A stretch of DNA of 47,972 nt from Flaviaesturariibacter aridisoli (GTDB lineage Bacteria > Bacteroidota > Bacteroidia > Chitinophagales > Chitinophagaceae), in the NCBI RefSeq assembly GCF_004343705.1, contig NZ_SKFH01000026.1:1-47972 (forward strand), given 5' to 3'. The notes below the pieces were generated by a model, which worked only from the letters and a program-made list of their open reading frames with translations, had not been told where the DNA came from and made no database searches. This document shows, piece after piece, positions 1,596 through 42,697 of the stretch. Made by a program: the position numbers and the translations under genes. The stretch's first letter is position 1. Each line of letters begins with the position of its first letter.

Positions 1596-1626
1596 GGGCA
1601 CGCGGAAAACGCGGAAGACGCGGAAT
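1596..1626 (+). repeat. 31-bp inverted repeat flanking the GxxExxY gene, left arm
   Basis: This arm contains three ACGCGGA units (ACGCGGAAAACGCGGAAGAC and onward) and is perfectly complementary to 2369-2399. A second, nested perfect 15-bp pair with the same core (AAAAACGCGGAAAAA) lies at 1737-1751 and 2244-2258. Together they bracket the GxxExxY gene. A degenerate single copy of the arm lies at 5556-5586. Confidence 0.85.
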
Positions 1627-1832
1627 TTTCTTCTAGCAACCTGCACTACGTATACTGGAGCAGTCTTTTTTGGAAAACCTTCTCGGTAGGGTCGTTTCTA
1701 AAAAACGAAAGGGCTGGCGGGCTGCTGTTTCCAGTAAAAAACGCGGAAAAATGTGCTGGGAAAAACAACAGGAAATCGTGGGGTTTTTCACCGGGCACTG
1801 TTTCTCTAATCGCATTCCTTTAGTAAAAAAAG

Positions 1833-2243
1833 ATGCTGGAGAACGAAACGGCCGAGCGCCAGGAGCTGAACCGCATTTGTTACCTGATACGCGGTGCATT
1901 TTTCGAAGTTTTTAAGGAGTTGGGCCCGGGGTTGCTGGAAAGCATTTACGAGGCCGCACTGATCATCGAATTGCAAAGTCGCGGCTTACAGGTGCACCGG
2001 CAGCGACCTTTACCCGTTTGGTACAAAGGGCATAAACTTGACGTAGATTTCAGGCTGGACTTGCTGGTCGAAGATAAAGTGGTCATCGAGCTCAAATCGG
2101 TGGAGGAACTGCATCCCGTTTTCTTCAAGCAAACCACCTCGTACATGCGCCTGGCAAAGGTCAAAGTCGGCTTTCTGGTCAACTTCAATGTTCCTTTCCT
2201 CAAAGACCGGAAGAGCCTTGTCCGCCTTGTCGCCGGCTTCTGA
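1833..2243 (+). CDS. GxxExxY family protein (PD-(D/E)XK nuclease-like)
   Basis: A 136-residue protein, the usual length for the GxxExxY family. The naming motif is present at about residues 33-39 (GLLESIY, inside GPGLLESIYEAAL). The C-terminal half carries a nuclease-like core: LDVDFRLDLLVED with an Asp, then VVIELKS with the E-x-K pair, matching the D...ExK arrangement of PD-(D/E)XK folds. The molecular function of the family is not established, so nuclease activity is an inference. The stop codon is followed directly by the inner inverted repeat at 2244-2258, and the whole gene sits between two nested pairs of inverted repeats. No operon partner: IS and MFS genes on either side point the other way. 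Confidence 0.85.
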   Translation: MLENETAERQELNRICYLIRGAFFEVFKELGPGLLESIYEAALIIELQSRGLQVHRQRPLPVWYKGHKLDVDFRLDLLVEDKVVIELKSVEELHPVFFKQTTSYMRLAKVKVGFLVNFNVPFLKDRKSLVRLVAGF

Positions 2244-2258
2244 TTTTTCCGCGTTTTT
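2244..2258. repeat. 15-bp inner inverted repeat, right arm
   Basis: TTTTTCCGCGTTTTT begins at the first base after the GxxExxY stop codon and is the exact reverse complement of 1737-1751. It shares the ACGCGGAAAA core with the outer 31-bp arms. Confidence 0.75.
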
Positions 2259-2368
2259 ACCGGAAGCTTCAACCTTTGTCCGGCTTCCGGTTTTAGAGGA
2301 GGCTTCCGTTGCCAAGGTTTTCAAGAGAGGATAGTTTTCTGAAAGACAAGAAAGCACGGCCTACGTTC

Positions 2369-2399
2369 ATTCCGCGTCTTCCGCGTTTTCCGCGTGCCC
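2369..2399 (-). repeat. 31-bp inverted repeat flanking the GxxExxY gene, right arm
   Basis: Exact reverse complement of 1596-1626 over 31 bases; the bases just outside and just inside the pair do not match, so the boundaries are sharp. The enclosed unit is about 0.8 kb. Confidence 0.85.
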
Positions 2400-4609: not shown

Positions 4610-4625
4610 CCTCCCTGCCCATCTC

Positions 4626-4713
4626 GTTCTCTTGTTCTCTTGTTCTCTCGTTCTCTCGTTCTCTTGTTCTCTCGTTCTCTCGTTCTCTCGTTCTCACGTT
4701 CTCTTGTTCTCTC
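4626..4713 (+). repeat. Octamer microsatellite (11 units) directly before a start codon
   Basis: Eleven consecutive copies of the 8-bp unit GTTCTCTY (one copy ends AC). The array ends three bases before the ATG of the ankyrin gene at 4717. It occupies the whole region where that gene's promoter spacer or ribosome landing site should be. A change in copy number would shift spacing by 8 bp, about three quarters of a helical turn. Confidence 0.95.
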
Positions 4714-4716
4714 CTC

Positions 4717-5555: not shown

Positions 5556-5586
5556 GGGCACGCGGAAAACGCAGAAAGCGCGAAAT
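5556..5586 (+). repeat. Solitary degenerate copy of the ACGCGGA repeat
   Basis: It begins GGGCACGCGGAAAACGCAGA, as do both arms around the GxxExxY gene apart from one base, and then diverges. It lies just after the ankyrin stop codon and has no inverted partner nearby, so it may be a remnant left after loss of a cassette. Confidence 0.65.
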
Positions 5587-5648
5587 TTTATACAGTTGAG
5601 AGTGCCCTCTCCCGTGCCGACAGCGCACAGCGGCTTGAACGCATCCCT

Positions 5649-42625: not shown

Positions 42626-42697
42626 GCCGCGTTCGTCTAAGGGCTAGGACACCTCCCTTTCACGGAGGCGATACGGGTTCGAATCCCGTACGCGGTA
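42626..42697 (+). tRNA. tRNA-Glu (anticodon TTC)
   Basis: A 72-base cloverleaf with acceptor arms GCCGCGT / ACGCGGT (one G-U pair), D-arm region GTCTAAGGGCTAGGAC, anticodon stem CCTCC / GGAGG around the loop CTTTCAC (anticodon TTC), and TPsiC arm ACGGG-TTCGAAT-CCCGT. The discriminator base is A and no CCA is encoded. It has its own promoter and terminator. Confidence 0.95.

Follow-up and report, generated by a model that had tools for sequence, protein, structure and literature searches.

The described system closest to the one considered here is that of the RAYT proteins and their REPINs, with which it shares dispersed inverted doublets able to fold as hairpins, tandem clusters of these, a nuclease gene framed by the repeats, and chromosomal residence (PMC3116915, PMC3733652). 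Two differences stand out: RAYT is an HUH/Y1 transposase whereas GxxExxY proteins are PD-(D/E)XK proteins, and the arms of GxxExxY loci consist of tandem 8–10-nt units and possess other end tags (PMC3116915, PMC3733652). The TIRYT/TIRtron elements likewise place a transposase-like gene between terminal inverted repeats, and these repeats exist as dispersed families too; however, their gene specifies a tyrosine (HUH) transposase, and the GxxExxY element encodes none (PMC3733652).

The PD-(D/E)XK core is common to GxxExxY proteins and the RecB nucleases Cas4 and lambda exonuclease, but GxxExxY proteins are shorter and their genes are found in a context of inverted repeats, not of CRISPR arrays or genes for phage recombination. 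Among MITEs and the parent insertion sequences to which they belong, forms with and without a gene have terminal inverted repeats in common. The GxxExxY family also has gene-bearing and gene-less forms with the same terminal repeats, yet its element lacks a DDE or HUH transposase, and no target-site duplication was seen at one mapped site. A literature search, with preprints and most subscription papers outside its scope, yielded no paper tying GxxExxY/PDDEXK_3 to these repeats, and the papers found that name the family make no statement of its function.

The window locus and its gene-less counterparts

Within the window (the whole 47,972-nt stretch of Flaviaesturariibacter aridisoli DNA that was analyzed), positions 1833–2243 of the plus strand encode a 136-residue protein, predicted to be a PD-(D/E)XK nuclease. 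A sequence-only reading of this DNA had named the product as a GxxExxY protein, and profile searches agreed, with matches well above the cut-offs for PF13366 (PDDEXK_3; 137.8 bits, cut-off of 22) and TIGR04256 (GxxExxY; 139.6 bits, cut-off of 35). The nuclease-like D...ExK pattern noted in that reading also held up; E36, D76, E86, and K88 were invariant in 54 sequences, and Q100 was conserved in at least 90% of them. When the AlphaFold2 model (mean pLDDT of 95.3) was submitted to Foldseek, two matches had E < 0.001, both of them chains of 4ic1 (SSO0001) with a TM-score of 0.54 on the query. We take SSO0001 to be a Cas4 protein. The next fold matches were lambda exonuclease, LHK-Exo, and RecE, with a Holliday-junction resolvase (2eo0) being weaker; TM-scores to the Cas4 and lambda-exonuclease-type nucleases were only moderate. 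No PDB sequence matched the profile at E ≤ 1, and PHROGs provided only weak matches, the best (E = 0.0087) being to a family labeled "CRISPR/Cas system associated." These features are best read as those of a predicted minimal nuclease of the Cas4/lambda-exonuclease-like PD-(D/E)XK type. Identity with a known anti-phage defense gene was considered and set aside, with 0 PADLOC families matching at E ≤ 1.

As that reading had described, the gene is enclosed by an outer pair of arms (left, 1596–1626, plus strand; right, 2369–2399, minus strand) that is 100% complementary over 31 nt, each arm comprising three tandem 9-nt units (ACGCGGAAA ACGCGGAAG ACGCGGAAT on the left). None of 500 dinucleotide shuffles of positions 1200–2799 produced a perfect inverted repeat of this length (mean of 11.3 nt, longest 24 nt). 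An inner pair does lie inside the outer one and is perfect, but it spans 16 nt (1737–1752 and 2243–2258) rather than the 15 nt reported, and its right member begins within the TGA stop codon, at the final base, not after it. These 16 nt belong to larger inner units, TTTCCAGTAAAAAACGCGGAAAAAT at 1728–1752 (plus strand) and its complement at 2243–2267 (minus strand), the latter delimited by the inverted-repeat search and by module alignment. Between the outer arms and inner units are weakly conserved subterminal stretches at 1627–1727 (plus strand) and 2268–2368 (minus strand).

Five inverted arm pairs with no gene between them were identified in the window genome (C8:38453/38616, C5:165182/165475, C40:30536/30827, C12:97106/98018, and C1:158744/159077), along with a lone arm at C1:159655. 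Alignment of halves revealed that the C5, C40, C12, and C1:158744 copies have the whole layout of a ∼165-nt module in common with the window, including the left subterminal stretch and an inner unit at the equivalent position; for example, window positions 2246–2399 were 69% identical to G000:C40:30704–30856. From the outside inward, the module consists of an array of three units, then a subterminal stretch of weak conservation, then an inner unit resembling TTTCCGGTAAA-ACGCGGAAAG. One copy in the related genome G007 shows this layout in its right half as well, and the C8 copy has the outer part of the module in common with the window. Among the aligned copies, only that of the window contains a gene. 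Because the gene-less halves align with the full window layout, what had been described as two nested pairs is really two parts of a single terminal module. The proposed shared core, ACGCGGA, gives way to a tandem 9-nt unit (ACGCGGAAN in the window) that varies between loci and genomes.

A decayed lone arm of the window's arm family is located at 5556–5589 (plus strand; 88% match to the arm, with ACGCGGAAAACGCAGAA at 5560–5576; C26:5560). The only Rfam match in the window was a tRNA at 42626–42697, and none overlapped the GxxExxY locus. Elsewhere in the window, the minus strand of positions 1–889 contains frames that we presume to derive from an IS3-type insertion sequence (OrfA-like at 503–889), and low-complexity TTCTC(G/T)TTCTC repeats occupy positions 4620–4715 between two genes.

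A search of the window genome for the GxxExxY family gave eight matches, fragments among them. Flanking inverted repeats, each with its own sequence, were present at the C11 gene (55 nt, 89%), the C10 gene (40 nt, 90%), and a broken gene on C16 (39 nt, 72%). The same inverted-repeat search detected no convincing pair at the C48, C2, and C56 genes; a 33-nt stretch flanking the C2 gene does pair in a separate flank comparison.

Inverted arms and protein subfamilies across GxxExxY loci

The sequence-only reading had proposed a link between the gene and its repeats at this one locus. We examined the best 80 of 581 GxxExxY loci, taken from diverse phyla, of which 77 were usable (flanked on each side by at least 100 nt), and scored the strongest inverted pairing of the two 350-nt flanks using a threshold of at least 28. 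Controls comprised 320 mechanically defined open reading frames (at least 100 codons) from the same loci, away from the element and with full flanks, and 770 mismatched pairs of left and right flanks. The median score was 38 for the GxxExxY loci versus 20 for each control, and scores of at least 28 were obtained for 58 of the 77 loci (19 falling below) versus 26/320 control frames and 80/770 mismatched pairs (Mann-Whitney p = 1.5e-29 against the frames). In a first, smaller set, for which gaps were penalized more heavily, 13 of 36 loci outscored all of their mismatched partners. The sequence of the arms varies from locus to locus, yet the left and right sides of one locus agree. The arm units occur in tandem with the form CRCNRMG, as defined on the same data, and were spaced by 8, 9, or 10 nt in 144, 77, and 33 cases, respectively, among the 288 spacings of up to 16 nt. 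Repeats around GxxExxY genes are not a local oddity of the window.

Relatives with a G.GFQE motif (Q-type) have arms of a different family, with an outer tag of TTGTCTGAAC and GATT units. Among 30 such loci, 27 were usable (two genes were not located by the script and one was at a contig edge), and 19 of these scored at least 28 versus 191/702 mismatched pairs. We also submitted 145 loci to a motif test on both flanks, in which five were discarded for stops or a missing motif and two for short flanks; L094, with its internal stop, had been excluded beforehand. The P-type loci (GPGL.E motif) had A arms on both flanks in 61/105 cases, neither arm family in 44/105, and the B tag in 0/105, whereas the Q-type loci had the B tag in 13/31, neither in 18/31, and A arms in 0/31. 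Two additional loci with other protein motifs had neither arm family. The arm family is thus one that tracks the GxxExxY subfamily; since the Q loci come from one bacterial class, part of the P/Q contrast could be taxonomic. Two Q-type loci from the window's own family (L102 and L108) have GAT units on both flanks. For the 82 P-type loci with at least four units, arm composition was weakly correlated with protein distance (rho = 0.17, attained in 0 of 2000 permutations; 0.15 after GC correction). From the correspondence between protein subfamily and arm family we infer that the proteins may recognize their own arm family.

The arms also have two polarities relative to the gene, with outward-facing (wrong-way) A units on both sides of 17/105 P-type loci. 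A GxxExxY gene at L103 (G132:C87) is bordered on both sides by long palindrome arrays of the CCATTAAGGAATTAAGG type, a third kind of arm, and the gene at L173 is placed between two whole arm-loop-arm units, the loops of which resemble a bidirectional terminator. For loci L095 and L099 an opposite orientation was considered and rejected, both having the same one.

Dispersed hairpins and presence/absence variation

GxxExxY proteins scored above the cut-off in 94 of 147 genomes of the window's family, with up to 15 matches per genome. One A-arm pattern yielded 793 matches in the 95 gene-positive genomes versus 70 in the 52 negative ones, and the reversed pattern yielded 25 and 11, respectively. 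At least two matches were present in 42/95 gene-positive versus 6/52 negative genomes (p = 4e-5), the latter being G032 (18 matches), G091 (17), G147 (12), G066 (10), G081 (3), and G019 (2). Similarly, one B-arm pattern was present in 13 of the 33 genomes that encode a strict Q protein (E ≤ 1e-35) versus 6/214 others (p = 6e-9), and its reverse had 0 matches in the searched genomes; of the 19 genomes with B arms, the six without a strict Q protein include G382, which has a Q fragment. The expectation that arms would be associated with GxxExxY genes, rather than scattered randomly in genomes, was therefore borne out, with arms occurring also as gene-less pairs, and the flank statistics, the association across genomes, and the match of subfamily to arm extend the gene-repeat link much more widely than had been proposed.

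Copies that we read closely, chosen as examples from the listings, included ∼85–95-nt palindromes with sharp ends, and tandem arrays were also seen. Four hairpin copies that were folded as DNA gave z-scores of −4.9 to −9.5. The hairpins are situated at gene ends, beside terminators. In G315, the 41-nt left arm of a gene-bearing locus (L274) is identical to the arm of a gene-less one (L272) and differs little from those of complete hairpins, and the start codon of the L274 gene overlaps the arm. The scattering of gene-less arm copies through the same genomes points to a family of small hairpin DNA elements with which the enzyme would be partnered. Rfam had no family match in 15 hairpin-bearing loci and no match in seven loci suspected of proximity to rRNA. 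Two candidate hairpin insertions, at L291:3259 and L291:14674, turned out to be other sequences; L291:14674–14767 of G315 is a different dispersed palindrome (∼92 nt, CTGAAACAAGTTCAGGATGAC type), for which that genome has at least 28 additional places, and L291:6513–6663 belongs to a ∼150-nt repeat family common to G315 and G252. Open reading frames between arms in G353 that were considered as other cargo were read instead as repeated host genes. Carriage by phages or plasmids was not supported either, in that one query matched 7 of 72,556 plasmid records, another matched 2 of 50,697 phage records (one virus), and one peptide pattern matched a single viral-contig locus; the GxxExxY elements reside mostly in chromosomes.

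Relatives lacking the unit precisely at the arm boundaries had been anticipated. At other GxxExxY loci, relatives that lack the unit at the corresponding place do exist, but at the window locus no exact-boundary empty site was visible, the G002 spacer being too diverged. Both neighbor genes are present in G002 with only 262 bp between them, so the gene is absent there. In G014, the right-hand neighbor adjoins a different gene and GxxExxY is not found at that place. G007 possesses an orthologous gene (identity at 86 of 137 alignment columns), whose arms differ in sequence (CACGGAATN) but remain complementary to one another, and for the G000 and G007 orthologs the pairing scores within a locus were 62 and 49 versus 32 and 39 with the same side from the other genome.

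Among seven genomes of one genus, G219 and G176 contain a Q-type element of ∼469 bp between two genes read as an efflux operon; these genes are adjacent in G286 and G317, 29–30 bp apart, and the remaining three genomes are too diverged there. The insertion provides a new stop codon from its left arm and apparently replaced ∼15 bp of the spacer. No target-site duplication was visible at this insertion, the sole site mapped, the relatives being 76–82% identical and so too distant for certainty. Gene-less hairpins vary in the same way; one in G315 is missing from the matching spacers of G252, G345, and G172, and a second is missing from that of G252. Between genes read as nuoF and nuoG, eight fetched genomes of the window's family contain an element, and of eight other fetched genomes seven have no insertion while G095 contains unrelated DNA; G037 and G055 appear filled, as judged from listings alone. 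The proteins encoded at this site, of which the G058 copy is broken, form two groups (G076 and G134 are 61% identical to each other and 44–57% identical to the others), a pattern suggestive of several arrivals. The arms here match across genomes as well as they do within a genome, which counts against the idea that each protein acts on its own arms. The insertions at the efflux-operon-like and nuo sites fall inside operons.

Relation to RAYT repeats and the proposed role of the predicted nuclease

As in the RAYT-REPIN arrangement, GxxExxY genes are flanked by a dispersed repeat, and their arms are inverted doublets that form hairpins. The window element lacks a Y1/HUH transposase, the sole Pfam match of its encoded protein being PDDEXK_3, and the GTAG tag of REPINs was not seen at the ends of GxxExxY repeats, which by eye are TTTNACC-like or TTGTCTGAAC. 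GxxExxY with its hairpins is best read as a candidate PD-(D/E)XK counterpart of the RAYT-REPIN system rather than a member of it.

Beyond the association, the dispersal, and the presence/absence variation documented above, we consider it reasonably probable that the predicted nuclease targets its cognate hairpin family, that the gene-less hairpins are non-autonomous satellites, and that these elements reach other intergenic sites by being copied or moved. On this view, the window locus would belong to a family of small palindromic elements and be the one that bears the gene. Every element would be built from two arms, arrays of 8–10-nt units in inverted orientation, with most copies enclosing only a short loop and being foldable as a hairpin and a few enclosing a GxxExxY gene. 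The nuclease would recognize the arms that belong to its family, probably in hairpin form within single-stranded or extruded DNA, and would bind and cleave its cognate hairpin, perhaps when this is single-stranded at a replication fork; processing would lead to mobilization of the hairpin, copied or moved, into new intergenic sites. The unit length, near one turn of DNA, points to protomers that bind repeatedly along a single face, each perhaps occupying one unit. Several observations weigh against this reading: 19/77 loci scored below 28, 44/105 P-type and 18/31 Q-type loci had neither arm family in the motif test, some genomes have arms but no detected gene, arms at the nuo site match equally well across genomes, no target-site duplication was visible at the mapped insertion, the correlation of protein with arms among P-type loci is weak, and P-type arms have two polarities. 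We are evenly divided on the broader proposal that GxxExxY proteins are the dedicated nucleases of an unrecognized class of palindromic mobile DNA with tandem units of about one helical turn, representing a second, independent REPIN lifestyle with PD-(D/E)XK in place of HUH and with each lineage having its own unit code. Arms read from the flanks offer a predicted DNA substrate for each protein, with a built-in control for specificity (A versus B arms). If the proposal is true, a maker would be assigned to a class of intergenic hairpins that has no Rfam entry, and if the protein mobilizes the hairpins, they would constitute a new type of mobile element.

Several other explanations were weighed. 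Short two-copy inverted repeats do arise by chance, but a chance repeat beside an unrelated gene is refuted by the shuffles (0/500), by the same arms being paired elsewhere in the genome, and by the flank statistics (58/77 versus 26/320). GxxExxY might instead be a passenger, caught between copies of REP-like arms (or in the same intergenic spots) that are moved by another enzyme such as RAYT/Y1. Consistent with this, Y1_Tnp (RAYT-type) genes were present in 13 of 15 chosen arm-rich genomes, and some genomes have arms with no GxxExxY gene detected; however, the two without a Y1_Tnp match, G133 and G324, have 64 A-arm and 13 B-arm matches, respectively. When the flank test was applied to 20 of 51 listed Y1_Tnp places, from seven genomes, 14/20 scored at least 28 with their own, different kind of repeat, and A arms were on both sides of 1/20. 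The test thus recovers the RAYT-REP arrangement, and GxxExxY arms are a system separate from it. Given also that the arm family follows the GxxExxY subfamily, we regard the passenger explanation as unlikely.

The nuclease might also police hairpins rather than spread them, as a host-serving or addicted structure-specific enzyme that cuts or resolves cruciforms of its own arm family. A RecB-like fold with weaker similarity to the Holliday-junction resolvase, the high predicted stability of the hairpins, and the retention of the gene at one place in several genera would fit such a role, which we nonetheless find distinctly unlikely because the up to 15 diverged matches per genome, the checked copies in the window genome that each have their own arms or none, and the broken copies give the family a selfish look. 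Highly improbable, in our judgment, is an explanation in which the arms function only at the RNA level, as terminators or insulators that allow the gene to sit in an operon with no mobility; hairpins do lie at gene ends near terminators and insertions are found inside operons, but a terminator needs no locus-specific sequence, and this explanation is at odds with the dispersed gene-less copies with their near-identical arms and sharp ends and with the presence/absence differences between relatives. Apart from these considerations, the Y1_Tnp genes at L317–L336 have flanking palindromes of their own, indicating that two repeat-plus-nuclease systems exist side by side in the same genomes.
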